This document shows positions 1,025-46,166 of a DNA stretch of 46,524 nucleotides, piece after piece. Location of the stretch: NCBI GenBank assembly GCA_937910235.1, contig CALENB010000523.1, positions 1 through 46,524 of the forward strand, written 5' to 3'. Under the pieces are notes generated by a model. The model saw only the letters and a program-made list of their open reading frames with translations, was not told the origin of the DNA and made no database searches. Made by a program: the position numbers and the translations under genes. This DNA is from an uncultured Myxococcales bacterium. Lineage in GTDB: Bacteria; Myxococcota_A; UBA9042. Each line of letters begins with the position of its first letter. The stretch's first letter is position 1.

Positions 1025-1053
1025 GGCCTGTGGGAACCAGAGGCCCCACGGCC
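1025..1053. other. Hairpin in the divergent intergenic region 897-1180
   Basis: GGCC-T-GTGGG (1025-1034) pairs with CCCAC-GGCC (1045-1053), a nine-pair stem with one bulged base and a ten-base loop. It lies about 130 bp before the transpeptidase start. It may be a leader structure or an operator. I found no well-spaced sigma70 promoter in 897-1180: TTGACG at 1116-1121 has only an AT-rich GAATAA 13 bases further on. Confidence 0.4.
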
Positions 1054-1180
1054 TTTGAGGTCACGCGACCCCATGCGGTCGATTGGTGGGCTTCTGCACG
1101 ACGACATCTCGAATGTTGACGATCGTCCGATGCCGAATAAGGTCGAAGCATGTCGCCTCAGTTGCGTCGAAGGAGTCATC

Positions 1181-3169: not shown

Positions 3170-3177
3170 GGGGCGGG

Positions 3178-5294: not shown

Positions 5295-5354
5295 CGCCGC
5301 AACCATCAGCCGTGCGTACCCGACCCCGCGTCAGGTACCCATGCGGAGCCACAC

Positions 5355-6104: not shown

Positions 6105-6129
6105 ACTGCTCGCGCGCCCTGGACTGCTG

Positions 6130-6156
6130 CGGCGCCTTTGAGGGGTGGAGGCGCCG
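6130..6156. terminator. Hairpin between convergent genes
   Basis: CGGCGCCT (6130-6137) and AGGCGCCG (6149-6156) form a perfect eight-pair stem around an eleven-base loop. It lies between the stop of the GT2 gene (6104) and the stop of the opposing membrane-protein gene (6160). There is no T-run on either side, so termination may be weak or Rho-assisted. Position and symmetry suggest a shared bidirectional terminator. Confidence 0.55.
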
Positions 6157-6159
6157 AAT

Positions 6160-8419: not shown

Positions 8420-8531
8420 GATCGCCCTCTCCAGCCACCCGAGCCTCATCGCACGGCATGGCGTGTGGTAGCCCACGCCCTCCGCTCAGGCAAGGCCCAC
8501 CCAGAGACCGAATCCATCGTCGTCATGGCGT

Positions 8532-8560
8532 TTGACCAACCGCAGGAGTTTCGGTATACA
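8532..8560 (+). promoter_or_regulatory. Sigma70 promoter for the RNase E/G gene
   Basis: TTGACC at 8532-8537 is followed after exactly 17 bases by TATACA at 8555-8560, five of six matches to each consensus hexamer. Expected start of transcription is about 8567. It is the best promoter in the window by hexamers and spacing together. Confidence 0.7.
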
Positions 8561-8682
8561 GGCCGCGCGTTTTCGCGCCATGAGGAACTGCGGGGCAGAG
8601 AGGCGACGACCGACAGGTCACGCCGGAGAGCCCCCGCCTCAGCGCAGCCCGTTCGCGCGATATGGTCGCGCCGGAGGCACGC

Positions 8683-8727
8683 TGTCAGTGAAAGCTGACA
8701 TTTACCCCGGAACCAAAGGCTCCGGGG
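8683..8727 (+). other. Two adjacent perfect hairpins in the RNase E/G leader
   Basis: TGTCAG/CTGACA (8683-8700, six-base loop) is followed four bases later by CCCCGGA/TCCGGGG (8705-8727, nine-base loop). They lie about 120-160 bases into the predicted leader. A stem-loop in the long rne leader is the known sensor of RNase E autoregulation in E. coli; an equivalent role here is inference. Confidence 0.5.
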
Positions 8728-9076
8728 ACCGGACAGACGGTGATGCGACCGACCCCAAAGCAAGACACGATCCAAGTTGCAGCGCCACGTCGCGCTGGCT
8801 TGATCGCGTCTGCCTGCCGACCAGCCGCTTGGCGCGCTGGCAGCGGCTCCTCCGCAGGCTCAACTCGACCCCAGAATTCGACAGTCGCACTTGTGAACTT
8901 CGCTCAGCCACCCCAGCTCCAATCGCGCGCACCCGCTGCGCGTATCCATTTGGAGTCAGGTGGTTCCGGATCACCGCCCCGTTTCGGTCTCCACGCACTC
9001 CCAGTTGGCGGTTGCCTTCTGACGTGAGCCCTTGGCTCCGGCATCGGGTCGCGCTTATCGCGGTCAGGAGTCGGAC

Positions 9077-17235: not shown

Positions 17236-17242
17236 CCGCCGA

Positions 17243-18967: not shown

Positions 18968-19096
18968 TTGGCGGCGAGATCCGCTACCCTGCTGGTCGGC
19001 GTTTGGTTTGTGCGGTCGGAGACCCATTGCCACACCCGCCGCCCAACCCCCCCCGGTCGTCGTTCACAAGTGCCGCTATCTGATTGAGGTCGATCC

Positions 19097-29390: not shown

Positions 29391-31849
29391 CGCCTGCAGG
29401 CCGCGCCGCGCCGTGCCCTGGTGGCGGCCATCAAAAACCGGATCGCCCGCTTGCCCCAGCCCATCGGCGCGCCCACCCTACCGGCGTGTGTGCCGCCTCC
29501 CGACCCCCCGCTCCGCGCAATGCTGCCCGCAAGGCTGCGGCCTCACGTCGTCCACGCGCCGGCGCAGCGCTCGACGTCGGCGCGCGCTTCACCCACGGCG
29601 TTGAGGTCGCCGTAGCGGCCGCCACAGGCGCCCTGAGCTACGGGCTGCCAGCCGCGATCACCACACTGCCGAAGCCCGGCACCCGGGTGCGGGTGCCGAT
29701 TCGCGGTCGCCTTCACGTCGGTGTGATCTGGCGCGTCGCCCCGGTCGCGGACCTCGAATGCCCGGTCGACAAGCTCCGGCCCATTGACGCGCTCCTCGAC
29801 GACGAGCCGCTGCTCCCCGAACCGCTGCTGCGGTGCCTCGAGTTTGCGGCCCGCTACTACCAGGCGCCGCTCGGTCAAGCGATGCGGCTCGCCCTGCCAG
29901 CGCCCCTGCGACGCACCGGCGTGACGGGTGACGAGGCCTCCACAAAGACCCGTTGGATGGTCGGGCGCATCGAAGGCGTCGACTGGCCGACCGATCTGCG
30001 TAAAAGCGAGCGACGCGTGCTGGAGCACGTGCTGGCCCACGGCGAGGTCAGCGCGTCCGACCTGCGCCGCAGCTCCGACCCGCTCACGGGTACGTTCAAG
30101 CGCGTCGCGGTGCCGCACCAGCTGCTCGAAGACCTCGCTGCGCGCGGGCTGCTGCGCTTGTCACAAGAGCACGTGCGGCGCGATCCGCTCGGCATGCGCG
30201 CAGACGTGTCGGTTGAGCCGCCCCCACCCGCCACCGACGAGCAGATCGCGGTCCTCGCGCACCTGAGCACCGCGCTGCAGACCCGCAAATACGGCGGTTT
30301 TGTGCTGCGCGGCGTCACGGGTAGCGGCAAGACGGAGGTCTACCTGCAGCTCATCGCCGAGGCGCTGGAGCAGGGCAGGGGCGCGCTAGTCTTGGTGCCT
30401 GAGATCGCGCTGACGCCGCAGCTCGTGCAGCGCTTTCGCGGTCGTTTTGGCGATCGCGTGGCGGCGCTGCACTCCGGCATGAGCGACGGCGAACGGCTCG
30501 ATCAGCATGGTCGGGTGCGGCGCGGCGAGGCGCGGATTGTCATCGGGCCCCGGTCCGCGCTGTTCGCGCCGCTCTTTGATCTTGGCGTGATCATCCTCGA
30601 CGAATGCCACGATCCCAGCTTCAAACAGCAGTCCGGTCTGCGCTACCACGCCCGCGATCTGGCGTTGGTGCGCGCGCGCGAGTCTGGCGCGGTGTGTGTG
30701 CTCGGCTCGGCGACGCCGGGTTGCGAAGAGATGGTCTTGGTCAGCGATGGCCGCCTCACGCTGCTGGAGATGCGACGCCGCGTCGCTGATCGGCCGATGC
30801 CTGAGGCGTTTGTGATCGATCTGCGCGACGCGGAGCGGCTCCGCGATCCCGACGACGAGAGTCGGCCGAGCCTGCTGTCCGTGCCGTTGCGCGACGCCAT
30901 GGTCCAGACCATCGCGCGTGGCGAGCAGGTGATCGTGCTGCACAACCGCCGCGGGTACGCCACGACCGTCGTCTGCGCGGGTTGCGGCGACAGCGTCGAG
31001 TGCCCCGACTGCGCCATCAGCCTCACGTGGCACCAGCGCCAAGGCCGCCTGCGCTGCCACTACTGCAACCACAGCGTCGATCCCGACCAGCCGTGCGAGA
31101 GCTGCAGCGGCCGAAACTTCCTCCGCGTCGGCACCGGCACCGAGCGCATCGTCCATACGCTGGAGCGCGAGCTGCCCGGCGCGCGGGTGGCGCGTTTTGA
31201 TCGAGACACGGCGACTGGCCAGCGCATGCACGAGCTGCTCAAACAGTTTCGTGATCGCGAGATCGACGTGCTAGTGGGCACCCAGATGCTCGCCAAGGGC
31301 CACGATTTTCCCAGCGTCACGCTCGTCGGGGTGTTGCTCGCCGAGACCGGCCTGCGCATCCCCGACTTCCGCGCCGCCGAGCGCACCTTTCAGCTGCTCA
31401 CCCAGGTCGCTGGTCGCGCGGGCCGTGGCGACCGACCCGGGCAGGTTTTGGTGCAGAGCTGGGCGCCCGAACATCCGGCGATCATGAGCGCCTTGCGGCA
31501 CGATCACCCCGGATTTCTGGCCCAGGAGTTGGAGCGACGCCGCCTGAGCGCCTATCCGCCCTATAGCCACCTCGCCTTGCTGGAGCTCCGCCACACGGAC
31601 CATCAGCGCACGGCGACCGCGGCCCGCATTCTGGCGGAGGCGTTGCGGGGCCATGGTGCGGACGCGCGTGGCCCGGTGGCGGCGGGTGTCGCCAAGCTAC
31701 GCGGCGTGCATCGCTACCACGTGCTGCTGCGTGCGGAGACGCGCGCGACGTTGCATGGCCAACTGCGGTGGGTGCAGGACCTGGCAACGAACGTCTTGCC
31801 GCCGGGCGTACAGCTGTTTGTCGACGTTGACCCCGCCGACTTCAGCTAG
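29384..31849 (+). CDS. priA: Primosomal replication restart helicase PriA, 821 aa
   Basis: Superfamily 2 3'-5' helicase that reloads the replisome at stalled forks. A 3'-DNA-binding domain starts at about residue 65 (VEVAVAAATGALSYGLP). The helicase has Walker A GVTGSGKT (K316) and a motif II that reads DECH (D406-H409) where PriA proteins usually have DEEH. Two zinc sites are formed by cysteines between about 531 and 575 (CAGCGDS, CPDC, CHYC, CESC). VGTQMLAKGHDFP and QVAGRAGRG complete the helicase motifs. The start is uncertain: ATG 29384 gives a basic N-terminal extension of about 60 residues with no good ribosome site, and GTG 29486 is a shorter in-frame option. It is divergent from nadC and converges on a lipoprotein gene 29 bp away. 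Confidence 0.93.
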   Translation: MATPAGRAAPCPGGGHQKPDRPLAPAHRRAHPTGVCAASRPPAPRNAARKAAASRRPRAGAALDVGARFTHGVEVAVAAATGALSYGLPAAITTLPKPGTRVRVPIRGRLHVGVIWRVAPVADLECPVDKLRPIDALLDDEPLLPEPLLRCLEFAARYYQAPLGQAMRLALPAPLRRTGVTGDEASTKTRWMVGRIEGVDWPTDLRKSERRVLEHVLAHGEVSASDLRRSSDPLTGTFKRVAVPHQLLEDLAARGLLRLSQEHVRRDPLGMRADVSVEPPPPATDEQIAVLAHLSTALQTRKYGGFVLRGVTGSGKTEVYLQLIAEALEQGRGALVLVPEIALTPQLVQRFRGRFGDRVAALHSGMSDGERLDQHGRVRRGEARIVIGPRSALFAPLFDLGVIILDECHDPSFKQQSGLRYHARDLALVRARESGAVCVLGSATPGCEEMVLVSDGRLTLLEMRRRVADRPMPEAFVIDLRDAERLRDPDDESRPSLLSVPLRDAMVQTIARGEQVIVLHNRRGYATTVVCAGCGDSVECPDCAISLTWHQRQGRLRCHYCNHSVDPDQPCESCSGRNFLRVGTGTERIVHTLERELPGARVARFDRDTATGQRMHELLKQFRDREIDVLVGTQMLAKGHDFPSVTLVGVLLAETGLRIPDFRAAERTFQLLTQVAGRAGRGDRPGQVLVQSWAPEHPAIMSALRHDHPGFLAQELERRRLSAYPPYSHLALLELRHTDHQRTATAARILAEALRGHGADARGPVAAGVAKLRGVHRYHVLLRAETRATLHGQLRWVQDLATNVLPPGVQLFVDVDPADFS

Positions 31850-31878: not shown

Positions 31879-34032
31879 CTACTCCTGCCGAGTCGCAAAG
31901 AAGGTCGCCTTCACTTGCTGGGGCTTGCCGCCGATCTTGACCTGCATGTTCCAGTCGCACGGGTAGGTCGACTTGCCGATCGAGTCGATGATCATGTCCT
32001 GATTGTCGTCGAAGATGGCGCACGCGTCGGTCTTGATCGTCATCGTGTTGCCCTTCGTCGTGTCGGTATCCAGGGCCACCAGCTGCGACTCGATGAGTCC
32101 GGCGCCGAGCGTCACGATCAGCTCGCAGGTGCCCTCCAGAAAGCTCGCGCCCACAAGCGACTGCTGCGCAGCGAGGCCTTTGCCGAAATCCGCACAGCAG
32201 GTGTCTTTGATCAGGCAGGCCTTGCCGGCGAGCAAGCTCTTGATCAGCTTGGCGTAGGAGTCCACCACCGGCGCCGCCGGATCTTTCGGATCCGCTGTGA
32301 TCGCGGGCAGCAGCTGCTTCTGGATGATGTAGTTGAGCAGCGCGCCCCACTTGATGCCGAGGCCGTGCTCGCCAATCTTGATCTCGCTCTTGGGCGTGTC
32401 CCGCCACAGGTCGAAGTGGCCGACGATCGCGTCTTGCTGAAAGGCGATGAAGCTGAAGGTCTTCTTGCCGCAGTTGGGATCCTTAGGGTTGCAGGCTTGG
32501 CCGAGCGACCACTTGTACGTCACCGACTGCCACTCGTCCTTGGTGTAGTCCTTGCTCAGAAAGCCCGTATTATCAGGCTCCTGTTTCAGATCGATGATGC
32601 CGCCCATCTCCAAGTCGGTGAGGATCTTGCCCAGGTCGGCGCCCGCGTTGAGCCCGGACTTCACGCTGTCTGGCAGGAAGCTGTACAGGATCGCGTCGAG
32701 AAACTTCACGATGAGCGCGCCAAACGGCTGCTTCAAGTTGTTGATATCGGGTTTTTTCACGTCCTCAAAGATCAGGCCGCAGAAGCTGTCGAGCTTGCCG
32801 TTGCCGAGCTTGCAGGTCAGCGACAACGTGCCGGCGATCGGGTCTGTGATGATGTCGAAGATCGCCTTGAACACGAACTCGACCGTGTCGGGCAAAATCG
32901 AGAGCAGGTCGAGGCGGGTCACCATGTCGTAGGTGCCCTTCAGGCGCGGCGGCAGGTCTTTGACGATGACGGTGACATCCGAACCCTCGAGCGCTTGTGT
33001 GCCGGGATTCCAGGTGATCGTCGCGCCTGTGTCGATGCAACCGGCGGCCCGCACGGCGCCGATGTTGCTCTTCGCTGCGACGCCAATGACGGTGAAGGTC
33101 AGCGGTTTTCCGCCGTTGATCCCGACCTCCTTCTCGACCCACTTGGCGAACGACGGGTACGTGATCGTCCACGGCTTGTCCCACTGCAGGTTGCCGGGGC
33201 TCTCCCACTGCGCTTTGGGCAGCGTGTCGCCCAGATCGACGTCTTTGCACGCCGGCTCCCCGTCGATGACCTGCCGCGTCAGCCGTGCCTTGATGTGCGC
33301 GAGCTCGAGTGGGTTGTTGGAGCCGAGGTAGTGCAGCCGAATCTGCAGCGGTCCCTTGGCCTTGGAGATCACGTGAACCTTGAAGATCTTGGCCCCTGCC
33401 GCCTCGTCGGCCGGCACGACCGCGGCGATGTCGATAGTGCCAGGCGATCCACCGGCCTTGAGCTCACTGACCGCGACCCCGTTTTCATCCGTGATGCTGT
33501 TCTCGATGAGGATCTCCGCCTTGGTGTTCTGCGGGTCGATCAAGCCAAAGCGGACCAACACATCGGCCTTCGGTTTGCCGTCGACGAGGTACTGCGCGTA
33601 GATCTTGCGCACGCTATTTTGCGGCAAATTCAGCTTGCACACATCCGCGCAGACCCCGCCGAAGTCGTCTTTGTTGTTGTTGGGCATGGCGAAACGCAGC
33701 TCGCTGCCCGCGCTTCCATCCGCCGTTGTGCCCGTGTCCGCGCCAGCTGTCGGGGCGTCTGAAGCGCCCATGGTGCCGTCCGACGTCCCGACGCCGCTGT
33801 CGGCGCCCCAGCCGCCGTCCCCAAAGATCGCGGCGCCGCCGTCGTTGCCGCCGCCATCCACCGGCGCCATTTGGCCGGGGACAATCGTGGTGCCGCAACC
33901 AGTGGCGAGGACAAGCAGGAGCAGCGTGTACCCGACAGACGTGCGCTCCTGCTTTGCCGCGGCGCCCGCACGCGCAGCGACTGCCCCGGGTGCGTGGGCG
34001 CTGTCGCGGTTCGCGGTGCCGAAGTCTCGCAT
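31879..34032 (-). CDS. Lipoprotein with Big-1-like domain, last gene of the surface operon, 717 aa
   Basis: The signal peptide has an unusually long n-region and ends in lipobox ATGC (Cys46, Gly at +2). A Gly/Asp/Thr linker of about 60 residues follows. Residues about 130-240 contain VRFGLIDPQ and TDENGVAVSELKAGG, which fits a bacterial Ig-like (Big-1) domain. The remaining 470 residues have scattered disulfide-type cysteines and a hydrophobic stretch (GALIVKFLDAILYSFLP) but no family I recognise. Start ATG 34032 has a GAGGAG site. It lies 132 bp after the preceding propeller gene, with a tandem repeat in the gap. It is probably the distal member of the five-gene lipoprotein run; an adhesin or structural role is inference. 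Confidence 0.78.
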   Translation of the reverse strand: MRDFGTANRDSAHAPGAVAARAGAAAKQERTSVGYTLLLLVLATGCGTTIVPGQMAPVDGGGNDGGAAIFGDGGWGADSGVGTSDGTMGASDAPTAGADTGTTADGSAGSELRFAMPNNNKDDFGGVCADVCKLNLPQNSVRKIYAQYLVDGKPKADVLVRFGLIDPQNTKAEILIENSITDENGVAVSELKAGGSPGTIDIAAVVPADEAAGAKIFKVHVISKAKGPLQIRLHYLGSNNPLELAHIKARLTRQVIDGEPACKDVDLGDTLPKAQWESPGNLQWDKPWTITYPSFAKWVEKEVGINGGKPLTFTVIGVAAKSNIGAVRAAGCIDTGATITWNPGTQALEGSDVTVIVKDLPPRLKGTYDMVTRLDLLSILPDTVEFVFKAIFDIITDPIAGTLSLTCKLGNGKLDSFCGLIFEDVKKPDINNLKQPFGALIVKFLDAILYSFLPDSVKSGLNAGADLGKILTDLEMGGIIDLKQEPDNTGFLSKDYTKDEWQSVTYKWSLGQACNPKDPNCGKKTFSFIAFQQDAIVGHFDLWRDTPKSEIKIGEHGLGIKWGALLNYIIQKQLLPAITADPKDPAAPVVDSYAKLIKSLLAGKACLIKDTCCADFGKGLAAQQSLVGASFLEGTCELIVTLGAGLIESQLVALDTDTTKGNTMTIKTDACAIFDDNQDMIIDSIGKSTYPCDWNMQVKIGGKPQQVKATFFATRQE

Positions 34033-34051
34033 GGCCCTCTCCTCGTCTGGT

Positions 34052-34112
34052 GACCCAGCGCCGGATGGACCCAGCGCCGGATGGACCCAGCGCCGGATGG
34101 ACCCAGCGCCGG
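34052..34112. repeat. 16-bp tandem repeat, 3.8 copies, between lipoprotein genes
   Basis: gacccagcgccggatg repeats exactly at 34052-34067, 34068-34083 and 34084-34099, with a fourth partial copy at 34100-34112. It lies in the 132-bp gap 20 bp before the start of the 717-aa lipoprotein gene, so it would be in the leader between the two minus-strand genes. It is not coding. Confidence 0.9.
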
Positions 34113-34164
34113 GCGTCGTCTTCGTCTACCGAACCCGGGCCGTCGTCGCGCGCGCTGTCCGGCG

Positions 34165-36984
34165 TCACGGGGTCGTGTCGCCGCTGGGTTCGGGCACCAA
34201 CGGCGGGATGTAGCGTAACACGGTGCCTATGCTGCCCACGAAAAGCGCGTCTTTGCCCCATCCGCAGACGTCGAAGAACGTCGCGATCGAACCAGAGTCC
34301 ACCTCGGCGAGGCTCTTACCGTCGAACGCGAGCACCATCCCTTGCGTGCCGGCTAGCAAGAGTCGGTCCTTGCCCCAGCCCCACATCGCGCGCACCACTC
34401 GGCTCTCATCCTTGAGGATCTGTGTGTATTTCCACGTCTTGCCATCCCAGTGCACAAGGACGCCGTTGCCGTGACTGTCGGGCGCGCCGGCCGCCCACAC
34501 GTCGTCCGCGCTCGCGCCCCAGACGGCGTAGAGCGTCGACTCGACGATGTAGGGATCTTGGTCGGGGATCTTGAAGGGCTCCACGGGCGTAGGCGACCAG
34601 CCGCCGCCAGTGTTGTGGTAGATCGCGCCCTTGTCGCCGACCGCCCACACATCCTTGGGTCCAAGCCCCCACACGGCGCGCATCGTCTGGATGACAGGCG
34701 CGGCGATGACGGCCCATTTCTGGCCGTCCCAGCGCCCTAGGATGCCACCCTTGCCGGCCGCGTAGATGTCGTTGGGGTCGCTGCCCCAGATCGCGATCCA
34801 GTCGATCTCTGCCGACGGGCCCTCGACGACGGCCCACTTGGCGCCGTCATAATGAACGATCGTGCCCGCCAGCCCGACGGCCCACACGTTGTCCGCCGCG
34901 CTCGCCCAAACCGCCCGAAGATGCTTGCCCGTTGGCGACTTGACGCCTTCCCACTGCGGCCCGCCGGCCCAACGCGCGATCATGCCGGTGTTGCCCACCA
35001 CCCAGATGTCCTTCGTGGAGTTGACGTGGATCCCATACGCGTCGTTTAGCCCGAATGTGCCGGTTTTCTGGGTCCAAACGCCGCCCTTGAGCTCCATCAG
35101 CAGCCCGGTTGAGCCGACCGCCATCGCTTGCCCCGGACCGGTGACGGCGACGTCGTTGAGGAACGCGGGTGCGCTCGTCTTCAACGCAAACGCGCCGGTG
35201 CTGCTGCGCTCGTAGATGAGGTTGTTGGCGATGATGTAGTACTGTCCGCCGCCGATCGCCGCCACCGATTTCAGCGTCGCGCTGCTGGGGAACGTCTTCT
35301 TGGTCCACTTGCCCTTGTCGAACTCCAGCACGGTGCCCTGCGCGCCGACCGCTAGCGCGTGGATCTTTGACGGGTCGTCGGCCGTCACCGCGACGTCGTA
35401 CAGGTCGTTTGTGACGCCGCTGCTGATCGGATCGATACCGTTTGGCCCCAGCGTGCCGAGCATGCCGCCCTGTCCCACCGCGAGCTGCAGCACGCCGGGC
35501 GCGCCGCCGAGCCCGAGGATGTCCTTCGGCTTGCCGCCCGTCTGCATCGTCCATTCGGTGCCGTCCCAACGCGCGATCGCGCCGGCGACTCCGACCGCGT
35601 AGGCCAGATCGTCGCCATAGGCCCACACGTCGAAGAACGTTGATTTGGTCAGCCCCTTGATGGCCGTCGTGCCTGCCGGGCAAGTCGTCGACACCAGCAG
35701 GTCATCGATGAACACGCCCTCACCGTCGTTGAGGTCCTTCTGCTTGGCGTCGAATGTGAACACCAGCTCGATGCTGACCCCGGACCAGTTGGTGAGGTCC
35801 ACGACCTGGGTGACGAACTTGCCCGCGGTGTCACCCGCGCCGCCGATCGCGTTCTTGTCCCAGACGAGCGTCATCTTGGTGCCCTGCTTCACGTGCAGCG
35901 TCAGCACGTCGAAGCCGACCCCGTTCTCGACGTCCATCAGCAGCTGGAACGTCAGGGTGACCTTCTCAGACACCGGCAGCTGAAAGAGCTGCGACCGCGC
36001 CGAGGCGCCGACGACCTTGCCGTTGTCGAACGTCGGGCACATCTTGGTCTTGTCGCCCGGACACGGCGCATCCACACGCCCGAAATACATGGATTTCGGC
36101 GCGCTGGTGACCCGGAGCTTGCCGTCTTTGCCGGTCATGGCCGCCGCGGACCAGGAGATGCCGCCCTTGTCCGTGGTCTTCTCGTACAGGTCGTTGACGG
36201 TCCAGTTCGCGAGGTTGCCAAAGCCGTCGGAGAACGCGACAGAGCCGCAGCATCCGGCCGCCCCCGACGCCGCGTGTTGGCAGATACCACTCTCGCAGTA
36301 GTCGCTGGTGCAGCCGTTATTGTCGTTGCAGTCGGCCCCGGATTTACAGCCGCCCGGCGGTCCCCAGACGGTGGCGACGTCCGTCTTGGTCGCGGCGAGG
36401 CCGGAGACGACCGTGCCGCTCAGGCCGGCCGCATGGGCTCGCAGCCCGCCTTTGCCTGCCGCGACGCCGTTGAGCGTCGTGAAGACGCCCGTCGTGAGCT
36501 CCTGCCAGGCGAGCCCGTTCCAGCCCAAGATCGTGCCGCCGGTCCCGGTCAGGTAGGCGCGTGTGCTGCCCTCCGTCCAGCAGCCGTGGAACACCTGATT
36601 CGCCACGCCCGGAACCTTGAGCTCTTGAAACAGACCTTGCGCGCGCACGCGCCCGGATACGTCGGGTAAGTTGACGTCGCTCTCGCCGCCGAGCCCTACG
36701 TCGACGACGTCGCTGAGCCCGCCGGCGTCGGCCGTCGCGCCGCTGGTGTCAGTCGCCGCCGCAGCGTCGACCGCAGCCGTGGCGTCGGTCGGCTTCGCCG
36801 CGTCCTGTTCCCCGCACCCACTCAGCCAACCCGTGACGCTCAGCACCGCGAGCCCGGCCCACAGCGCCCATGCGACCGCGCGTCCAGCGTGCCCGGCTTG
36901 CGCGGTTTGCCCGGTTTGCCCGGCTCGGCGGGATCGCCGTGATCGGCGGGTTGAGCCTGACAGGCCCGGTCGAACGTGCACCAT
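34165..36984 (-). CDS. Lipoprotein with beta-propeller interrupted by Cys-rich and jelly-roll domains, 939 aa
   Basis: An Arg-rich n-region and hydrophobic core end in lipobox LSGC (Cys57, Gly at +2), then an Asp/Ala/Thr linker. Two propeller-like repeats (TGTGGTILGWNG, TLNGVAAGKGG) precede a Cys-rich stretch (CKSGADCNDNNGC) and a jelly-roll segment from FSDGFGNLANW to EGVFIDDLLV, similar to MAM/immune-inhibitor-A-type domains. About ten further propeller repeats follow, with phrases like VWGLGPKDVWAVGDKG and ILGRWDGQKW. Such repeats form WG/YCF48-like propellers that bind proteins or sugars. Start ATG 36984 has AGGAG seven bases upstream, ten bases after the upstream stop, so co-transcription is very likely. 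No enzyme motif is seen. Confidence 0.85.
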   Translation of the reverse strand: MVHVRPGLSGSTRRSRRSRRAGQTGQTAQAGHAGRAVAWALWAGLAVLSVTGWLSGCGEQDAAKPTDATAAVDAAAATDTSGATADAGGLSDVVDVGLGGESDVNLPDVSGRVRAQGLFQELKVPGVANQVFHGCWTEGSTRAYLTGTGGTILGWNGLAWQELTTGVFTTLNGVAAGKGGLRAHAAGLSGTVVSGLAATKTDVATVWGPPGGCKSGADCNDNNGCTSDYCESGICQHAASGAAGCCGSVAFSDGFGNLANWTVNDLYEKTTDKGGISWSAAAMTGKDGKLRVTSAPKSMYFGRVDAPCPGDKTKMCPTFDNGKVVGASARSQLFQLPVSEKVTLTFQLLMDVENGVGFDVLTLHVKQGTKMTLVWDKNAIGGAGDTAGKFVTQVVDLTNWSGVSIELVFTFDAKQKDLNDGEGVFIDDLLVSTTCPAGTTAIKGLTKSTFFDVWAYGDDLAYAVGVAGAIARWDGTEWTMQTGGKPKDILGLGGAPGVLQLAVGQGGMLGTLGPNGIDPISSGVTNDLYDVAVTADDPSKIHALAVGAQGTVLEFDKGKWTKKTFPSSATLKSVAAIGGGQYYIIANNLIYERSSTGAFALKTSAPAFLNDVAVTGPGQAMAVGSTGLLMELKGGVWTQKTGTFGLNDAYGIHVNSTKDIWVVGNTGMIARWAGGPQWEGVKSPTGKHLRAVWASAADNVWAVGLAGTIVHYDGAKWAVVEGPSAEIDWIAIWGSDPNDIYAAGKGGILGRWDGQKWAVIAAPVIQTMRAVWGLGPKDVWAVGDKGAIYHNTGGGWSPTPVEPFKIPDQDPYIVESTLYAVWGASADDVWAAGAPDSHGNGVLVHWDGKTWKYTQILKDESRVVRAMWGWGKDRLLLAGTQGMVLAFDGKSLAEVDSGSIATFFDVCGWGKDALFVGSIGTVLRYIPPLVPEPSGDTTP

Positions 36985-36994
36985 CACTGCGCTC

Positions 36995-39022
36995 CTAGAG
37001 ACCTGCGTCGAGTTGATAGATGCCGCCCTTGTGGCCGATCGCGACGGCGTCTTTGCCGGAGACCGCCACGTCCAGCAGCACGTTTGGCAGACCCGACTCG
37101 ACGACCTTCCAGTCACCTCCGGCGCCAACGACGAGCGTGCCCTTCCAGCCCACGCCGATGATGTTGCCGTCAGCGCTGCGGGCCACACCGTACAGAAACA
37201 GCCCTGGGCTCTCGAAGACCTTGCTCCACTTGCCGTCCACCCGCAGCAGCACCAACCCGTTGTCGCCGACCGCGACGACGCCTTTGTCCCACGCCGCCAC
37301 TCGGTGCAGGTTGAACGACTCACCGCTCGCTTCCTTGTTCCATTTGCCGCTGCTGTCGCGGTGGATCACCGTGCCGAACTCGCCGACGGCCCACGCCTCG
37401 CCGCCGTGCGTGGCGATGGCCGTCAGATTGAACTGCACGCCCGTCTTCTCGGCCTTCCAGTCGCTCCCATCCCAGCGCAGCGCGATGCCGCCGTGACCAA
37501 CCGCGACGACGTCCTTGCCGACCAGCGCGACGCCCGAGAGGCGCTGGCCGGCGGCTTCGGCGGCGACGCGCACCTGCGGATCGCCGTCAGCCGTGATCCG
37601 CACCGTCACCCCGTTGTCGCCGACCGCCCAGAAGCCCTTGGCGCCGTCGTCGGCGACGCCGCGCAGGTGAGTCCCTGTCACCGCGACACCCAGATCGACG
37701 AACCCCGCGTTGGCGTCTTTGGCCTCGAGCAGCACCCCCGAGTCGCCCGCCACGATGAGGCGTCCGTCCGGCAGCGTGGTGATGTTATTGAGATGGGCCG
37801 TCGTCTCGGCGCGATAGTCGAGCCACTTCTCCGTCGCGCCGTCAAAGCGGATGCCCACGCCCTTGTCGCCAACCGCGAACGCAAACGCCGCCTCAGCCCC
37901 TTGCGCAGCCATGCCCCACACCGCGCGGAACGTCCCGGTCTTCATGTAGGTCCCGTCGATGTCGGTGACGTTCCACTTGCTGCCGATGTGGTGGATGAGC
38001 GCGCCGTCTGCGCCGACCGCCCAGGCCTCTTTTTCGCCCATAGACCAGATACCAAAGAGGTCGCGGCTCTTCGGGTCGTTGGTCAGCGAATCCACCCACA
38101 GCTTGCTCTCAGTCGCGGCGACATAGCCGCCGTCGCCGACGGTCAGCAAACGTCCCGTCGCGGTCGCGGTGAGCCCGTGTAGGTCCGCGTTGGCCTTCGG
38201 CAGCGGCACCGAGGCCCACGATCCACCCGACAGCCGGAGCGCCTGACCTTTATCGCCAACCGCCCACACATTGCCGGCGTTGATCGCGTGAATCGCTCGG
38301 ATCTTCAGCGCGAAGTTGGTCTGCTCTTTCATGAGCTTGTTGCTTGGCAAGACACGGTAGACCACGCCGTCGTCGCCGCCCATCATCACAGTGCTGGCGT
38401 CAGCGGGCGCGTGCACGCCACGCAGGATCACCTTGCCGATGTCGTCCGGCGTTCGGTCCTGCATCTTCACGCCGTTGTAGTGCAGCACGATGCGATCGCC
38501 GACCAGCCACACGTCTTTCGGGCCGCGGCCCCAGACGCCATAGAGATCCCTGTCCGTCCCGGATTTGCGGGGTGTCAGCACGCTGCCGTTGTAGTGCAGC
38601 ACACGTCCGCCGGAGCCCACCCACCAGATGTCGTCAGGGCCGCTGCCCCAGATCGCCGTCATGTTGTCGGTGAAGCGAAGCGAGCGCGCCGTCAGCACCT
38701 CGCCCGTGCCAGCGCCGTCCGTCGCGCCGACGTCGCTGTTCGCCACGCCGTCCGTCTGGCCGCTGCCGTCGATCGCGGTGTCGCCCGCGCCGCCATCCAC
38801 GCCGCCGTCCACGCCGCCATCCGCGCCCGCCGTATCGCCGCCGGTCGTGTCCTTCTTGTCGTCGTCGCCCGTACCGCAGCCACTCAGACAGCTGAGGCCG
38901 AAAATCAGGGCCAACAGCGCTGCCGCTGACGCACTAGAGCGCGTCGTCGCCGACCCCGCCACGCAGCGTCGAACGCTCCCCACTCGGCCGCGTGATGCGG
39001 TCCGCTCCTGGTTGCTCGTCAC
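36995..39022 (-). CDS. Lipoprotein with beta-propeller, 675 aa
   Basis: The signal peptide ends in lipobox LSGC (Cys49, Gly at +2), followed by a Gly/Asp/Thr/Ala linker of about 60 residues. The rest, from residue about 115, is a continuous run of roughly 12 propeller repeats of 40-45 residues, each with a core like AIWGSGPDDIWWVGSGG or WAVGEFGTVIHRD. It is a simpler relative of the following 939-aa protein and of the C-terminal part of the preceding TIG protein. The start is GTG 39022, with AGGA eight bases upstream, ten bases after the upstream stop. No catalytic motif is visible. Probable role is surface binding or scaffold. Confidence 0.86.
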   Translation of the reverse strand: MTSNQERTASRGRVGSVRRCVAGSATTRSSASAAALLALIFGLSCLSGCGTGDDDKKDTTGGDTAGADGGVDGGVDGGAGDTAIDGSGQTDGVANSDVGATDGAGTGEVLTARSLRFTDNMTAIWGSGPDDIWWVGSGGRVLHYNGSVLTPRKSGTDRDLYGVWGRGPKDVWLVGDRIVLHYNGVKMQDRTPDDIGKVILRGVHAPADASTVMMGGDDGVVYRVLPSNKLMKEQTNFALKIRAIHAINAGNVWAVGDKGQALRLSGGSWASVPLPKANADLHGLTATATGRLLTVGDGGYVAATESKLWVDSLTNDPKSRDLFGIWSMGEKEAWAVGADGALIHHIGSKWNVTDIDGTYMKTGTFRAVWGMAAQGAEAAFAFAVGDKGVGIRFDGATEKWLDYRAETTAHLNNITTLPDGRLIVAGDSGVLLEAKDANAGFVDLGVAVTGTHLRGVADDGAKGFWAVGDNGVTVRITADGDPQVRVAAEAAGQRLSGVALVGKDVVAVGHGGIALRWDGSDWKAEKTGVQFNLTAIATHGGEAWAVGEFGTVIHRDSSGKWNKEASGESFNLHRVAAWDKGVVAVGDNGLVLLRVDGKWSKVFESPGLFLYGVARSADGNIIGVGWKGTLVVGAGGDWKVVESGLPNVLLDVAVSGKDAVAIGHKGGIYQLDAGL

Positions 39023-39032
39023 GTCGTCGGTC

Positions 39033-42000
39033 CTATTGCTTGGTGAAGAAGAACTGGTTGATGGCCCACGAGCGCCACGTCAACTGGTTCATATCGGTGA
39101 GGTCGTAGGCGTCGATGTCGAAGCCTTCCTTGTAGCCACGCACCATGGTCAACCGCAGGGTCGTGCCCGTCGGGATGCCCGGCGTACCTTGGATATTCGG
39201 GAACGCCGGCAGCTTGGTCTGAGTCAGCCCGCCCTCCGCCATGATGTTCCACACCGGCGTGTCTGGCCCCATCCCGGGGATGCCGATGGTGATGTAGTTG
39301 AAGTGCGGCTGCGTCGTCGACTCGTCCACGTTCCACTTCAGCAGGTAGTCCGTGAGCACGCCGTTCACCTTCGGGTTCACGTCCAGCGGCGGGTAGATCA
39401 TCGGCCCGATCAGCAGCTCCTGCTCTCCCATCGCGAAGAAGTCGCCGTTTGGCTGGGTGTAGAGCGCGTGCAGAGACTTGTGCACCTCTTTCACGTTCAC
39501 CTTGTCCCACGTCTTGCCGTCGTAGTGCAGGACCACCGAGCGCGTGCCGACCGCCCAGACGTCGCTGTCGCCGTTGGCCCACACCGCGTGCAGTGTGCTC
39601 TGGACCGGGCTCTTGTGGGCCGTCCACTTCACGCCGTTGTAGTGCAAGATCTGCCCGGCCTCACCCACCGCATACACCGACGTGGCGCTCTGCGCGTAGA
39701 CGTCTCGCAACGCGATCGAAGAGCCGGATGGTTGCGTCTGCCAGACCTTGCCGTCCCAGTGAACGATGCTGCCGCCGTATCCCACCGCCCAGATGTGCTT
39801 GTTGTCCGAGCCGTGAATGGCCCACGCGTTCAGGTACGGTGAGGGGTAGTACTTCTTGAAACCCGTCTGCGAGCCCTGGTTTGCGAGCTTGTAGACGCCG
39901 CTCGTGCCAGCCGCCCACACGTCCACGTCGCCGGGTTTGTCGCCCGCCGTTGCGAACACGCCGTTGAGGTTGACCGCGCCAGAGATCATATCGAGCGGCT
40001 TCCATCCCGCCCCATCAAACGCCGCCGCCGCGCCCTTGTAGCCGACGACCCACACCTGATTCGCCGAGATGCCGTGCACGCCGCGCAGGTCGTCCTGCGT
40101 GAAGTTGGCCTGCTGGGTCCAGCCGTTGCCGCTCCAATTCATCAGCGCGCCCTTCGTGCCGACCGCGTAGATGTTCGTCGAGCTCGCGCCCCACATGTCG
40201 TAGATGGTGTTTTGCACGCCGGTGGCGATGCCCTCAAAGTCGCCGTTGCCCAAGCGCCGCACCATCGTGTCGTTGGTCATCGACTTGATGTCGTTGAGCA
40301 CCGACGCGCTCATGGGCATCTGGTTGCCGCCCGTGATCTGCACGACCAGCCCAAGAATGCTCAGCGAAGCGTCGAAGATGTCGCCCACAAACGCCGCCGG
40401 AAGCTGCTCGATCTCTAGCTTGTCGGGATCGGTGCTCTGGAACGGGGCCAGGAACTTCTGGTCGGTGTTGGGCATGCGAATGACGCCGTCCGAACCGAGC
40501 ACCAGATACGCAAACGCCGCGTCGACAATGTAGCCGCCGCCGGTGAACGTCCACGTCGGCGGCTCGTCAAAGCGCACCGAGGCTTTTCGTGACAGTGGGA
40601 TGTCGAGCTTGATGTGCACGTCTTTCGGGTTGTCGCCGGGACCCACAAAGAGGTGACGTTTCACGCCCATCGTCGTCGCCGTGAACTTCTGCATCGCGGT
40701 GGCGTCGTCTGCGTTCAGCACCGTACCGACGGCCTTGTAGCCGCCGAAACACACGATCGCCATCTCGCCGAACCCTGTTGTGATCGCGTAGCTGTAGCCA
40801 TTGGCGGGCGTCGCCTCAAAGCCGTTGCCAACCTTGGGCTGGTTCTCCGCGCTGAAGATCGTCGACTTGGTGTGGTAGCAGACCGCCGCCAGCTCTCCCG
40901 CCTTCGGTACACAGCGCGCGCCGCCAGCCTCCTTCTGCGGCGCACACACAAAGCCCGTGATGCACTTCTGGCCCTTGCTGCAGTCCTGCACGCACCGCTT
41001 GCCGTTGGCGTTGCCAATGTCGAGGCATGCGAAGTCCTGGCCACCGGTGGTCTGGCATTGCGCCGTCGTCGAGCAAGCATCACACGTCGGCTTCGGCGTG
41101 GTCGGTTTGCCGGTGTACTCGTAGCACTTACCGGCCGGGATGATGACGTACTTGTCCAGCCCAATCACCTTGCCACTCACCAGCGGCAGCGGCTGCCCGG
41201 GTGGCGGCGAGCCAGGGGAGGGTGGCGGGATCGGCGCGATAAACACCGTGACGTTGGTCGCGTTGAACTTCACCACAGAGGCTGATTCGTAGGCCTCCTT
41301 GCTGGCGGAGATCATCTGCGTACCCAGCACATCGCTGCCGCTGAACGTGATCTGGCCGTTCTTGTCGGTGAAGCCCTGGTGCGGCGTCGTTGGGTCCGTC
41401 CACAGCATGGTGAACGCGTCGGGTACAGGCTGCCCACTCGAGCTGTCCAGCACGGTCACGTTGACGGTGCCATCCACCGCCGCGCCCCAGGTGCCGCCGT
41501 ATTTGCTCATCGGGTTGAAGTAGGTGAAGCCGTTCTTCAGCGAGCGCGCTTCCTTGCCGACCTGCACCTTTACCGGTACGGCGCCGACCTTGCCCGGCGG
41601 CGTCTTCACGGTGATGTGGGTCGGATCGATGAACGTCACGTGGGTCGCCGGGTTGTCGCCGAAGAAGACCTGCATCGATTTCTCGAACCCAGCGCCGTAG
41701 ATGTTGACCTTGGAGCCGCCCGCCTGCGCGCCGTTGTCGGGGTAGACGACGTACAACGCCAGTGACTGGCCCGAGTAGGCAAACCCGTTTGGCAAGACGG
41801 CCTGGTCGTCGCCGATCTGCACGAGGATGTTGACGTAGCCGGGGCTGCCGGGGGGCGTGATCGCCTGGATCTCGCTGTCGCTGACCACGACGACGGTGGC
41901 GGCCTGCAGCGCGCCGATCCGCACCAGCGGTTTACCCTTGGAGAAGCCGGCCCCCTTGATGACGATCTTCGTATTGCCCGCCGGCGGACCGAACGCCGGC

Positions 42001-43313
42001 GCGATGCTGTGAACCTCGACGCTCAGGTCGTAGGTGTAGCCGTCTGTGGCGGTGTGCGTACCTTTTGAGGTCACCACCGTCACGTCGATGGCGCCTTCCT
42101 TGGCCCCCTTTGGCGCCTCGACCACGACGGTGTGCGCGCCCGGCGTCACACTGGCGATATTGGCGAGTTTGCCGCCAAAGAGCACGGTAGTGTCGTCCTT
42201 GCTGACCAATCCATTGGCCACGATCGTCACGGTTTGCCCACCAGCCAGCGGGCCCTTGGGCGGCGCGATGGCCAAGATCTTGGTCGCTGCCGTGCCCTTG
42301 TCGTCGGTGTACACGTAGCCGTTTGGCAGGCTGTGCGTGCCGTACTTCGTCTTCACGGTCACCGCGACAGCGCCGGACTGGCCGGGCGGCGCGCTGATGC
42401 GCAGCTTGCTGGTGCCCTGCACCTCAAGCACGGAGGCCTGGTTGTCGCCGAGCCAAACCTGCGTTTTGTCCGTAAAACCGGCGCCGAGGACCGAGATCTC
42501 GGTGCCGCCCGACGTGGGACCGGCCGCTGGGGCGACGGTCTGCACCTTGGGCTGGGAGTGATAGAAGAAGCCGTTCTTCAGCGTGCCAGTGCCGCGATCG
42601 TTGACGACGTGAACCGGCTGAAAGCCGAAGACGCCTGGCGGCGTGACCACGAGCACTTCCGAGTCGTCCACAACCTGCACCCCGATCGCGGGTTTGCCGC
42701 CGATCAGGACTTTGGTGTTCCCAGCGAAACCAGAGCCGCTGATCGTGACAGGCGAGCCGCCGGTCACGGAGCCCTCTGCCGGCGAGACCTTCGAGATGAT
42801 CACGTCGTTGTAGAACAGGAACGCATCATCGAGCGCGCTTGAGTAGGCCGGTTTGCTCGGATCTTCGTTGGGAACCAGCACCGTGATGTCCGACAGCCCC
42901 GGCGTGTGCGGCGGCGTCTGCACCTGGATCTCGGTCGCGTCGACGACAAAAACGGCCTCTGCGTCCAGCGGCGTACCGTCAAACAGCACCTGCGCTTCCG
43001 CCGTGAACCCCGTGCCCGTCAAGATGAGCGGTTCATTGCCCGTCGCCTTGCCCTGGCTCGGCGTCACCGTCAACAAGCTCAGTTTGGCGCTGACCGCCGC
43101 GTCAGCCACGGCGATGTCACCAGCTGCAGCCCCAGAATCTTCGGCATCTTCGCCGGTTCCGCTGTCAGCGGCGGAAACGCCGGTATCAGTCGATCCGCCC
43201 GCATCTGCCGGGCTAGCAGGCCCGTCGGTGGAGGTGTCTGAACAGGCTGGCGCGATCGCGAGCAGCACGCACAAGGTGAGGCTGCCGAGCCGTGGCCACA
43301 GATTCCGATTCAT
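39033..43313 (-). CDS. Giant TIG/IPT-repeat lipoprotein with C-terminal beta-propeller, 1426 aa
   Basis: Modular surface protein. The lipobox is APAC (Cys24, Ser at +2), then an Asp/Thr/Ser linker to about residue 75. Six TIG/IPT Ig-like domains fill about 75-590, each with the pattern GGSPVTISGSGF, a central strand such as VLIGGKPA, and a TPPG turn. Next is a carboxypeptidase-regulatory-like domain (about 600-690, FTDKNGQITFSG), a Pro linker, and a Cys-rich block (about 745-805). An unrecognised region leads to propeller repeats at about 1060-1290 (VWAVGTRSVVLHYDG). The C-terminal 110 residues are a separate fold. Start ATG 43313 was chosen because AAGGAG is seven bases upstream; ATG 43319 is only one base from it. 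Adhesion is the most likely role. Confidence 0.88.
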   Translation of the reverse strand: MNRNLWPRLGSLTLCVLLAIAPACSDTSTDGPASPADAGGSTDTGVSAADSGTGEDAEDSGAAAGDIAVADAAVSAKLSLLTVTPSQGKATGNEPLILTGTGFTAEAQVLFDGTPLDAEAVFVVDATEIQVQTPPHTPGLSDITVLVPNEDPSKPAYSSALDDAFLFYNDVIISKVSPAEGSVTGGSPVTISGSGFAGNTKVLIGGKPAIGVQVVDDSEVLVVTPPGVFGFQPVHVVNDRGTGTLKNGFFYHSQPKVQTVAPAAGPTSGGTEISVLGAGFTDKTQVWLGDNQASVLEVQGTSKLRISAPPGQSGAVAVTVKTKYGTHSLPNGYVYTDDKGTAATKILAIAPPKGPLAGGQTVTIVANGLVSKDDTTVLFGGKLANIASVTPGAHTVVVEAPKGAKEGAIDVTVVTSKGTHTATDGYTYDLSVEVHSIAPAFGPPAGNTKIVIKGAGFSKGKPLVRIGALQAATVVVVSDSEIQAITPPGSPGYVNILVQIGDDQAVLPNGFAYSGQSLALYVVYPDNGAQAGGSKVNIYGAGFEKSMQVFFGDNPATHVTFIDPTHITVKTPPGKVGAVPVKVQVGKEARSLKNGFTYFNPMSKYGGTWGAAVDGTVNVTVLDSSSGQPVPDAFTMLWTDPTTPHQGFTDKNGQITFSGSDVLGTQMISASKEAYESASVVKFNATNVTVFIAPIPPPSPGSPPPGQPLPLVSGKVIGLDKYVIIPAGKCYEYTGKPTTPKPTCDACSTTAQCQTTGGQDFACLDIGNANGKRCVQDCSKGQKCITGFVCAPQKEAGGARCVPKAGELAAVCYHTKSTIFSAENQPKVGNGFEATPANGYSYAITTGFGEMAIVCFGGYKAVGTVLNADDATAMQKFTATTMGVKRHLFVGPGDNPKDVHIKLDIPLSRKASVRFDEPPTWTFTGGGYIVDAAFAYLVLGSDGVIRMPNTDQKFLAPFQSTDPDKLEIEQLPAAFVGDIFDASLSILGLVVQITGGNQMPMSASVLNDIKSMTNDTMVRRLGNGDFEGIATGVQNTIYDMWGASSTNIYAVGTKGALMNWSGNGWTQQANFTQDDLRGVHGISANQVWVVGYKGAAAAFDGAGWKPLDMISGAVNLNGVFATAGDKPGDVDVWAAGTSGVYKLANQGSQTGFKKYYPSPYLNAWAIHGSDNKHIWAVGYGGSIVHWDGKVWQTQPSGSSIALRDVYAQSATSVYAVGEAGQILHYNGVKWTAHKSPVQSTLHAVWANGDSDVWAVGTRSVVLHYDGKTWDKVNVKEVHKSLHALYTQPNGDFFAMGEQELLIGPMIYPPLDVNPKVNGVLTDYLLKWNVDESTTQPHFNYITIGIPGMGPDTPVWNIMAEGGLTQTKLPAFPNIQGTPGIPTGTTLRLTMVRGYKEGFDIDAYDLTDMNQLTWRSWAINQFFFTKQ

Positions 43314-43385
43314 GTTCATTCTCCTTCTCGCACTGGACCCAATCGAACCGCTCTCAACCTAGCTCGTCGACGCCGACGCCCGCCC

Positions 43386-43444
43386 GCGCTCAGTCATCTC
43401 TGCGCTCAGTCATCTCTGCGCTCAGTCATCTCTGCGCTCAGTCA
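43386..43444. repeat. 16-bp tandem repeat, 3.7 copies, at the end of the IgGFc-type gene
   Basis: gcgctcagtcatctct repeats exactly at 43386-43401, 43402-43417 and 43418-43433, with a partial copy at 43434-43444. The TGA stop of the upstream-transcribed gene (43438-43440 on the plus strand as tca) lies in the partial copy. Each complete unit also contains the same tca, so the stop is re-created at every period. Confidence 0.9.
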
Positions 43445-45474
43445 CCAGGCTCTTTCACCAGCTTCAGGTCTTTCAAGTCGAGTCCTGCCGGGTAACCGTA
43501 CGACACGTATTGATCAAAGCCGTACACGTCGACCGCCACCGGCTGGTCAGACTTGACGCGATGCACCCCCTCTCCCACAAAGATCCGGGCCATCTGGTAC
43601 GTCTTGGACACCTTCTCGAAGAAGTCTGGCGACAGCAGGTTGCCGTCAAACGACACCTTCGCGCCCATGGGCGCCGCCACCGAGATGTAGTTCATGGCGT
43701 ACTTGTTGGGCGCAAGGAACACGAATTCGTTCCGCCACTGTGCCACAGGAATCGCCAGGAGGAACGCGGGATCTCCGGTACCGGCGTCGCCAGGCTGCGG
43801 CCCCACCGAGTTCGGGTCGGGCGCGTCCTGGCTCGCCATGAAGTGACCCACCATGATCGGAGCCGGGCTGCCATCGCCCTTCTTCGCAATGATCTCGAAG
43901 CTCTTACTCGTCTCGATCTCGTACCACTCGCCCTTGCTCAGCACCGGCACGTACACGTTCTTGCCGTCCTGGTCCTTGATCGGCGGGATCGTCGTCACCT
44001 TGGTGCCGTCCTCCGCCGCCATGATGCGCCAATAGTCGCTCTCCTGCCCCCGCGGAAACAGCTTCACGGCGACGTAGTGCGAGCCCCACGTCTTGATCGG
44101 GAACATCTGCATCTCGAGGTGATCGGCGCAGCAGGTGATGAACTGGCTGCACTGCTCATGCTTGTAGCAGGGCGTCTTCTTGTCGTACGCGCACACACCG
44201 CACTTGGAGTTGTTGGCGAGCTCCTTGGCGGTGCACAGATCCACATCACACCGGTTGGTGTTGGGGGCGTTGGCCGCTTCTGACCCGCCAAATACGGCGA
44301 CTCGCTTGTTCGCGGTCACGATCGATCCCGTCAGGTCCGAGCCGACCTGATCTGACTCGATGTTCAACGTGTCCCACTGATCGAGGATGAACTCGCCGCC
44401 CTCGCCGCCCTTGAACACCTTGATCGGCGTGCCCGTGGAGCTCGCCAGGGTCTTGCCCGTCGTCTTGGAGAACTGCACGTTCACCGTCGTCTGCCCGCCA
44501 AGCGTCGCCACGATCGTGATGAACCCGCGCAGAATCGAGAACGACTGCTCCCGGGACATGACCATGTAATACTTGCCCAAAAGCTCCTCGGGCAGCAGCA
44601 GGGACGCGTCGTTGGAGAAGACATTCTCGTTCTCCAACGGGTTGAACTGATACGCCGTGATCGGGACTGAGGAGCTGACTTTGTAGGCCAATTTCGCCTG
44701 GACGGTGCCGTTGATGTTGCGTGGCGGCAGGTTGTAGACGCGCAGTTGGCCCGGTTTTAGGGGGGACAGATCGAGCTTCCCGCCCTTTGCGTCGAACTCG
44801 ACGATGCCCTCGTTGGTCTCGATCTTGATGTTGGCCGCGAGTTTGTCCGACGGGTTGCTCACCACCACGGCGTACTGCGCGCCGGCTGCGTCGTAGTAAC
44901 CACGCTTGCCGCCCGGCACAAAAGCGTTGTCGAGGTCGGTCGCCCAGAACGAACAGCCGATGTAGCTGTTGGCTTTAACGTTGATTTCACAGGCCTCGGC
45001 ACACAGGCCGCCAGCGTAACACTGCTTACCGGCGCCGCCGTCGCAGGTCTTCGAATCGACCCACTCGCCCTCGGTGTTGCAGGTCTGGACGACCGTGCTG
45101 TCCGTTTCACTACAGCGGTTGAGGCCTGGCGTGCACACCGAACAGACTCCGGGGAGCTTGCAGCGGCTCACGCCACCGTCGCTTCCGAAGCACTGCGTCG
45201 CCTCCCAGCCGCTGCCATCCGCCTTGCATCGCTTCAGCTCGGTGTCGCTCGCGCAGCCATCGACGCTGCCCGGTGCGCACACGCCTCCGTCGGGGATGGC
45301 CTTGATCGTGTCCTGGCTCTGACCGTCGATTTGGCCGCCGCCGTCGGTGCCGATGGCGTCCAGATCGATCGTGACGGCGTCCTTCTCCGCCGGTGGTGTC
45401 GCGCTACAGGCCCCAAAACTCAGCATGAGCGCGAGGGCCAAGAGGGCGGAGGAGGGGTGACGGGTGCTGTGCAT
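43438..45474 (-). CDS. IgGFc-binding-type lipoprotein, first gene of the surface operon, 678 aa
   Basis: The signal peptide ends in lipobox FGAC (Cys23, Ser at +2), with a short Asp/Gly/Gln linker. Residues about 66-160 are Cys-rich modules (CAPGSVDGC, CTPGLNRC, CNTEGEW). The rest fits the IgGFc-binding N-terminal domain: KRGYYDAAGAQYAVVVSNPS, PITAYQFNPLENENVFSNDASLLLP in pieces, WGSHYVAVKLFPRGQE, and a closing GEGVHRVKSDQPVAVDVYGF. This domain was first described in a mucin-like human protein and is frequent in myxobacteria, where it is thought to bind glycoprotein. Start ATG 45474 has AGGA seven bases upstream. It heads a same-strand run of five lipoprotein genes. No confident promoter was found upstream. 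Confidence 0.87.
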   Translation of the reverse strand: MHSTRHPSSALLALALMLSFGACSATPPAEKDAVTIDLDAIGTDGGGQIDGQSQDTIKAIPDGGVCAPGSVDGCASDTELKRCKADGSGWEATQCFGSDGGVSRCKLPGVCSVCTPGLNRCSETDSTVVQTCNTEGEWVDSKTCDGGAGKQCYAGGLCAEACEINVKANSYIGCSFWATDLDNAFVPGGKRGYYDAAGAQYAVVVSNPSDKLAANIKIETNEGIVEFDAKGGKLDLSPLKPGQLRVYNLPPRNINGTVQAKLAYKVSSSVPITAYQFNPLENENVFSNDASLLLPEELLGKYYMVMSREQSFSILRGFITIVATLGGQTTVNVQFSKTTGKTLASSTGTPIKVFKGGEGGEFILDQWDTLNIESDQVGSDLTGSIVTANKRVAVFGGSEAANAPNTNRCDVDLCTAKELANNSKCGVCAYDKKTPCYKHEQCSQFITCCADHLEMQMFPIKTWGSHYVAVKLFPRGQESDYWRIMAAEDGTKVTTIPPIKDQDGKNVYVPVLSKGEWYEIETSKSFEIIAKKGDGSPAPIMVGHFMASQDAPDPNSVGPQPGDAGTGDPAFLLAIPVAQWRNEFVFLAPNKYAMNYISVAAPMGAKVSFDGNLLSPDFFEKVSKTYQMARIFVGEGVHRVKSDQPVAVDVYGFDQYVSYGYPAGLDLKDLKLVKEPGD

Positions 45475-45899: not shown

Positions 45900-46166
45900 A
45901 TGGCCGTTCGCATTCGCCTCGCCCGCTACGGCGCCAAGAAGCGCCCTTTCTACCGCATCGTCGCCGCTGATAGTCAGTGCCGCCGCGACGGTCGATTCAT
46001 CGAGACCATCGGTACGTACAACCCGTGCGTGAACCCCGCTGCGATCGACTTGAAGCTCGATCGCTACGACCACTGGACCGGCCAGGGCGCCAAGCCCACC
46101 GAGACCGTCGCATCGATCGTGCGCAAGGCCCGCGGCCAGGTTCAGACCGAGACCACCGAGGGTTGA
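45900..46166 (+). CDS. rpsP: 30S ribosomal protein S16, 88 aa
   Basis: Small-subunit protein that binds 16S rRNA early in assembly. The N-terminus MAVRIRLARYGAKKRPFYRI and the later GRFIETIGTYNP are diagnostic, and length is normal. Start ATG 45900 follows CAGGAG with eight-base spacing. It is the first gene of the usual rpsP-khpA-rimM-trmD operon. The usual upstream neighbour ffh is absent here. Confidence 0.98.
   Translation: MAVRIRLARYGAKKRPFYRIVAADSQCRRDGRFIETIGTYNPCVNPAAIDLKLDRYDHWTGQGAKPTETVASIVRKARGQVQTETTEG

Follow-up and report, generated by a model that had tools for sequence, protein, structure and literature searches.

Analysis of the window, a complete contig of 46,524 bases belonging to a 7.1-Mb genome in 593 contigs, revealed five consecutive minus-strand genes, designated A to E, that we interpret, with a probability of about 0.45, as an operon for an outer-membrane lipoprotein assembly, likely outward-facing and involved in contact or adhesion. 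The domain content of the five products consists of binding modules only.

Gene layout of the locus

The five ORFs announced in a preliminary description of this DNA were all present at the locus, and the coordinates of A to E and of their domains refer to the minus strand. Gene A (positions 43438 to 45474), assigned from its ORF, its match to PF17517, its orthologs, and its dN/dS, encodes an IgGFc-binding lipoprotein of 678 residues (lipobox Cys 23). Gene B (39033 to 43319; ORF, six TIG domains, and orthologs) encodes a TIG-rod lipoprotein (lipobox Cys 26) of 1,428 residues counted from the first ATG; the 1,426 residues given previously correspond to a nearby start. Gene C (36995 to 39022), which starts with GTG and encodes a propeller lipoprotein of 675 residues (lipobox Cys 49), and gene D (34165 to 36984), which encodes a propeller/jelly-roll lipoprotein of 939 residues (lipobox Cys 57), were both assigned from the ORF, a Ycf48-like profile, and orthologs, the start of D being uncertain between 36846 and 36984. 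Gene E (31879 to 34032; ORF, orthologs, and structural model) encodes a lipoprotein of 717 residues comprising a Big_1 domain and a barrel (lipobox Cys 46). With the starts used here, the A-B, B-C, C-D, and D-E gaps were about 118, 10, 10, and 132 bp; the last three are those reported before, and the first had been given as 124 bp. Within-genus comparisons gave dN/dS ratios of 0.09 to 0.31 for all five genes, with saturated dS in one comparison of A, indicating that these are real genes under purifying selection. Gene calls were made with a simple gene caller, and many of the compared genomes are fragmented assemblies.

A domain-family search of the five products returned no match to an enzyme or transporter family, in agreement with the earlier statement that no such motif is visible. 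A promoter scan of the locus found none, and terminator matches were no more frequent there than in shuffled sequence. The cluster is flanked by rpsP (ribosomal protein S16; 45900 to 46166, plus strand), divergent from A, and by priA (29723 to 31849, plus strand), convergent with E. Elsewhere in the window (15307 to 20890), three successive plus-strand ORFs of 642, 574, and 597 residues had no Pfam family; the first and the third begin like lipoproteins.

Conservation of the cluster within the class

Relatives were searched with E and B, 19 loci of the same family were fetched, and gene order was established by tblastn; families (f1 to f43) and genomes (G) are designated below by arbitrary handles internal to this analysis. 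The preliminary description had proposed looking for conserved order in relatives, and the genes were indeed found to travel together: the order A-B-C-D-E was kept on one strand in 19 of 19 family loci, even where the proteins were only about 40% identical, and A-B-C-D recurred in one order, without E, in six more families (f2, f3, f6, f7, f8, and f9). The stop and start of C and D overlapped by 4 bp in 11 of the 19 family loci, as well as in f7, and the other gaps in the family were mostly below 150 bp. The short gaps, the 4-bp overlaps, and the conserved order are strong but indirect indications that A to E are cotranscribed as one operon. The surroundings were more variable. In the window's family, rpsP lay beside A in 12 of 19 loci and priA near E in seven, and another genus had a folE/MoxR block at the place of priA. 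Since flanking genes change between families while the block stays, merely frozen synteny was ruled out.

The set of five genes is divisible, because nested units (A-B, A-B-C-D, and A-B-C-D-E) occur and E is located elsewhere in other families. E belonged to the cluster in the window's family alone and was absent from it in f2, f3, f5 to f10, and f12. Homologs of E were present outside the A-D cluster in most genomes of the class, unlinked to A-D, and in four (L062 to L065) of eight loci from three families other than that of the window they lay beside a DAGK_cat (diacylglycerol-kinase-like) gene. The order A-B-C extended as far as the contig end in f10, A-B extended to near the contig end in f12, and no clear A ortholog was found in f4.

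Family f5 was heterogeneous, with the order C-D-A-B in genome G050 and A without B, C, and D in several other genomes. In an unrooted tree of the A genes, sequences grouped by family, which suggests largely vertical inheritance, and the lone-A sequences of f5 nested beside the C-D-A-B genome, indicating that B-C-D were probably lost in these members of f5. At four f5 loci (L092, L093, L099, and L100), the lone A was flanked by small outer-membrane-beta-barrel-like proteins (weak OMP_b-brl matches); these are possible partners of A at such loci. At locus L096 (genome G038, f8; positions 5035 to 8934), A was followed immediately by C, with neither B nor D present, an arrangement for which a natural deletion and an assembly fault are both possible.

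The A-B pair outside the class

Searching 237 genomes of the phylum with the A profile, at a match threshold of E below 1e-100 for the out-of-class set, identified 15 out-of-class genomes, in families f28, f30, and f43. B directly followed A on the same strand in all 14 out-of-class loci in which the contig continues past A; in most of these loci the junction was short or overlapping and both products carried lipoboxes. The pair was divergent from a Ser/Thr-kinase-like gene in f30 (L094, L151, L152, L155, and L158) and f43 (L156 and L157), and in most loci of these two families it was followed by a gene for a small CarboxypepD_reg lipoprotein and by others. At a further A-B locus, L091 (positions 166 to 3807), a protein of 1,213 residues encoded divergently from A-B contained nine thrombospondin type 3 repeats and six MopE-type putative metal-binding motifs.

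Domain content of the five products

Two domain types of the preliminary description, the IgGFc-binding type and the six TIG repeats, were confirmed, in A and B, respectively, by scores far above the curated cut-offs. A matched IgGFc_binding (PF17517) in two stretches (residues about 289 to 652; 43519 to 44610) with an E value of 1.3e-56 and 192.5 bits for a cut-off of 25.6. Its N-terminal Cys-rich block (residues 66 to 162; 44989 to 45279) is conserved, most of the cysteines being invariant among 11 relatives. The PDB sequence search gave no match for A, and the IgGFc_binding domain also occurs in other genes of the same genome and of the phylum.

In B, six TIG stretches (residues about 82 to 600; 41520 to 43076) were detected with an E value of 1.6e-70 and 233.6 bits for a cut-off of 20.9. 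They precede a weakly matched CarboxypepD_reg-like domain (residues 618 to 685; 41265 to 41468; E = 1.7e-4, below the curated cut-off), a beta-propeller recognized by alignment and blade motifs (residues about 1010 to 1300; 39420 to 40292), and a conserved C-terminal domain (residues 1301 to 1428; 39036 to 39419); B also carries a Cys block. Among 12 aligned out-of-class B proteins, the C-terminal domain was 96 to 97% occupied, and the propeller (residues 1051 to 1300) had an occupancy of 0.0 (0/12). The presence of the B propeller coincided with that of the C and D genes. The gene tree is unrooted; gain of the propeller and of C and D in the class would be simpler than their loss outside it. 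The association of the B propeller with C and D predicts a specific B-C-D interaction. The window's family also harbors diverged B paralogs (L071 to L080; 25 to 31% identity, many near full length) that are not adjoined by A, C, or D.

C and D had no Pfam family above its cut-off, and both matched Ycf48-like propeller structures in sequence-profile searches (E = 7.1e-9 and 6.5e-11, respectively). Blade spacing, a rough motif count, suggests five propellers in place of the three of the preliminary description, one in B, about two in C, and about two in D. D also contains a Cys block and a jelly-roll-like module (residues about 207 to 437; 35674 to 36366) with a weak Dicty_CTDC match. The jelly-roll assignment is putative, being based on the look of the sequence and on the recurrence of the module (profile positions 171 to 397) in many proteins of the class.

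The full-length E protein had no Pfam family match. Its first 107 residues comprise the signal peptide, the lipobox, and a linker modeled with low confidence (pLDDT under 50). The Big-1-like domain announced earlier was recovered in the AlphaFold model, in which residues 107 to 225 (33358 to 33714) form a Big_1/intimin-D0-like domain (VIA Z score of 11.4 to 6tqd over 97 residues, rmsd of 2.4). Because this Ig domain dominated the full-length fold search, the C-terminal 362 residues (356 to 717; 31882 to 32967) were modeled alone, with 48 homologs in the alignment. In the model (pLDDT of 81, pTM of 0.73), eight strands form a barrel, into which two helical segments are inserted. Pfam and PDB sequence searches returned nothing for this domain. 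Its best VIA structural matches were a designed barrel, Cap15, and avidins (Z scores of 9 to 11.6), and Foldseek gave no support (best E value of 0.16). The likeness to avidins and calycins is one of shared topology, which by itself establishes neither kinship nor ligand binding. A TULIP lipid-binding fold had been considered for this domain and was rejected, since the modeled fold is instead this barrel and no TULIP protein was among the structural matches listed.

Lipoprotein signals and sorting

The lipobox attributed to each gene in the preliminary description was seen in all five and in 79 of 95 copies of A to E from the 19 loci of the family; among the 16 copies without it, several were cut by contig ends or by the start placement of the script. 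The +2 residue, next to the lipobox cysteine, was Ser or Gly in most copies and Asp in two of 79; under the lipoprotein sorting rule of E. coli, this pattern favors the outer membrane. The linkers of A to E were Asp-rich and those of BamD Glu-rich, with median Asp fractions of 0.125 to 0.20 versus 0.025 for BamD of the same family. Total linker acidity, with medians of 0.15 to 0.25 versus 0.175 for BamD of the same genomes, separated the two sets only weakly and was discarded as a mark of surface sorting. The OmpA-type matches tried as a further comparison mostly had no lipobox. In Capnocytophaga, the surface export signal K-(D/E)2 lies near the +1 cysteine (PMC5080379). None of the 79 lipoprotein tails contained this motif, K/R-acid-acid being searched at positions +2 to +8; the scan addressed the strict K-(D/E)2 form, as distinct from its Q-A-(D/E)2 and SDDDD-type variants.

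Proposed assembly and alternatives

We infer that the products of A to E are sorted to the outer membrane, that they are probably exposed at the surface, as judged from their domain content, that they are rather likely to form a physical complex, and, more tentatively, that this assembly mediates adhesion. Each product would be exported by Sec, lipidated at the lipobox cysteine, and tethered through a flexible, Asp-rich linker. The ancient core would be a pair consisting of the IgGFc-binding protein A and the TIG rod of B. In the window's class, the propeller of B would form, together with the propeller lipoproteins C and D, a binding head of about five propellers. In the window's family, E would contribute, in addition, a Big_1 spacer and a barrel that may accommodate a small hydrophobic ligand. 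The assembly would most likely face outward and mediate contact, that is, cell-cell, prey, or matrix adhesion. A more ambitious interpretation, which we consider doubtful, is that of a layered surface machine of an uncultured Myxococcota class, in which an A-B pair became a multi-propeller receptor by insertion of a propeller into the TIG protein and the joining of C and D, a barrel lipoprotein being added afterwards, to give an undescribed contact or recognition complex.

Ycf48 is an assembly factor and not an adhesin. It is the nearest solved propeller to C and D, which would count against adhesion and makes a periplasm-facing scaffold the main rival: the lipoproteins would reside on the inner leaflet of the outer membrane and aid the assembly or stability of other outer-membrane proteins, as the Ycf48 or BamB propellers do with their clients. 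The small barrel-like proteins flanking A in part of f5, the absence of the strict surface-export motif, and the maintenance of the unit across most of the class, as for a housekeeping function, are consistent with such a scaffold. We nonetheless regard it as unlikely, since extracellular proteins are the more common place for long TIG and Big_1 stalks, Cys-rich blocks, and an IgGFc-binding domain, the Asp-rich tethers are unlike BamD of the same genomes, and B-C-D appear to have been lost in part of f5.

The presence of E at unlinked sites, the lone A in part of f5, and the A-C arrangement of L096 count against one fixed assembly. A to E could instead be coregulated but independent binders, adhesins needed together that form no single complex, an explanation ranked next after the scaffold and likewise improbable. 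The modularity of E, the occurrence of A alone or without B, and the many other propeller and TIG proteins that the class encodes outside the cluster fit this possibility; however, the adjacency of A and B in 14 of 14 testable out-of-class loci and the presence of the B propeller where C and D occur suggest functional coupling, and the B paralogs found without A, C, or D are all diverged. Capture of a ligand or nutrient appears very unlikely. A Sus-like outer-surface binder would pass glycans, lipids, or other compounds to an uptake channel, with the ligand held by the barrel of E, and both the avidin/calycin-like barrel (Z scores of about 9 to 11.6) and the DAGK_cat lipid-kinase gene beside E homologs in three other families would suit it. 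However, the cluster and the flanks examined contain no TonB-dependent receptor, transporter, or hydrolase, and the barrel match, given the Foldseek result, is one of topology.

Relation to known systems

The individual domains are known, the gene set is undescribed in the literature found, and the set can be viewed as a form of multi-lipoprotein envelope system. A shares its domain with bacterial IgGFc_binding proteins, for which no established bacterial function was found in the literature, and differs from the others by its fixed B neighbor and its conserved N-terminal Cys-rich block. C and D resemble cyanobacterial and algal Ycf48 structures in sequence profile but have two to three times their length, bear a lipobox, and are encoded in a lipoprotein operon; the role of Ycf48 in photosystem II assembly is not expected for them, as the lineage is not known for photosynthesis. 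The intimin-D0-like fold predicted for residues 107 to 225 of E recalls the Big_1 stalks of intimin and invasin adhesins. Unlike these adhesins, E is lipid-anchored, has a single Big_1-type domain and a different C-terminal barrel, and, in the AlphaFold model, lacks the N-terminal outer-membrane beta-barrel of inverse autotransporters. The Sus/Gpd surface complexes of Bacteroidetes also comprise several outer-membrane lipoproteins encoded together (PMC5080379, PMC3128124), as predicted for A to E. In contrast to these complexes, A to E include no enzyme and no K-(D/E)2 export signal, and neither the genes of the cluster nor the scanned flanks included a SusC/TonB-dependent channel. Literature searches, from which subscription journals were largely excluded, found no paper on this five-gene set and nothing relevant linking IgGFc-binding to Myxococcota or to lipoproteins or predation, or Ycf48 to Myxococcota.

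Because at least eight families keep it in set order amid changing surroundings, the unit stands out as an important and testable set among the large IgGFc-binding, TIG, and propeller lipoproteins that are abundant in these genomes and to which the papers found assign no function. A culturable carrier may be found in the three further families that have the minimal A-B pair. In the window's genome (G000), the D profile gave 879 first-look candidates, 10 of them scored; this number hints that propeller and jelly-roll proteins have expanded very strongly there.
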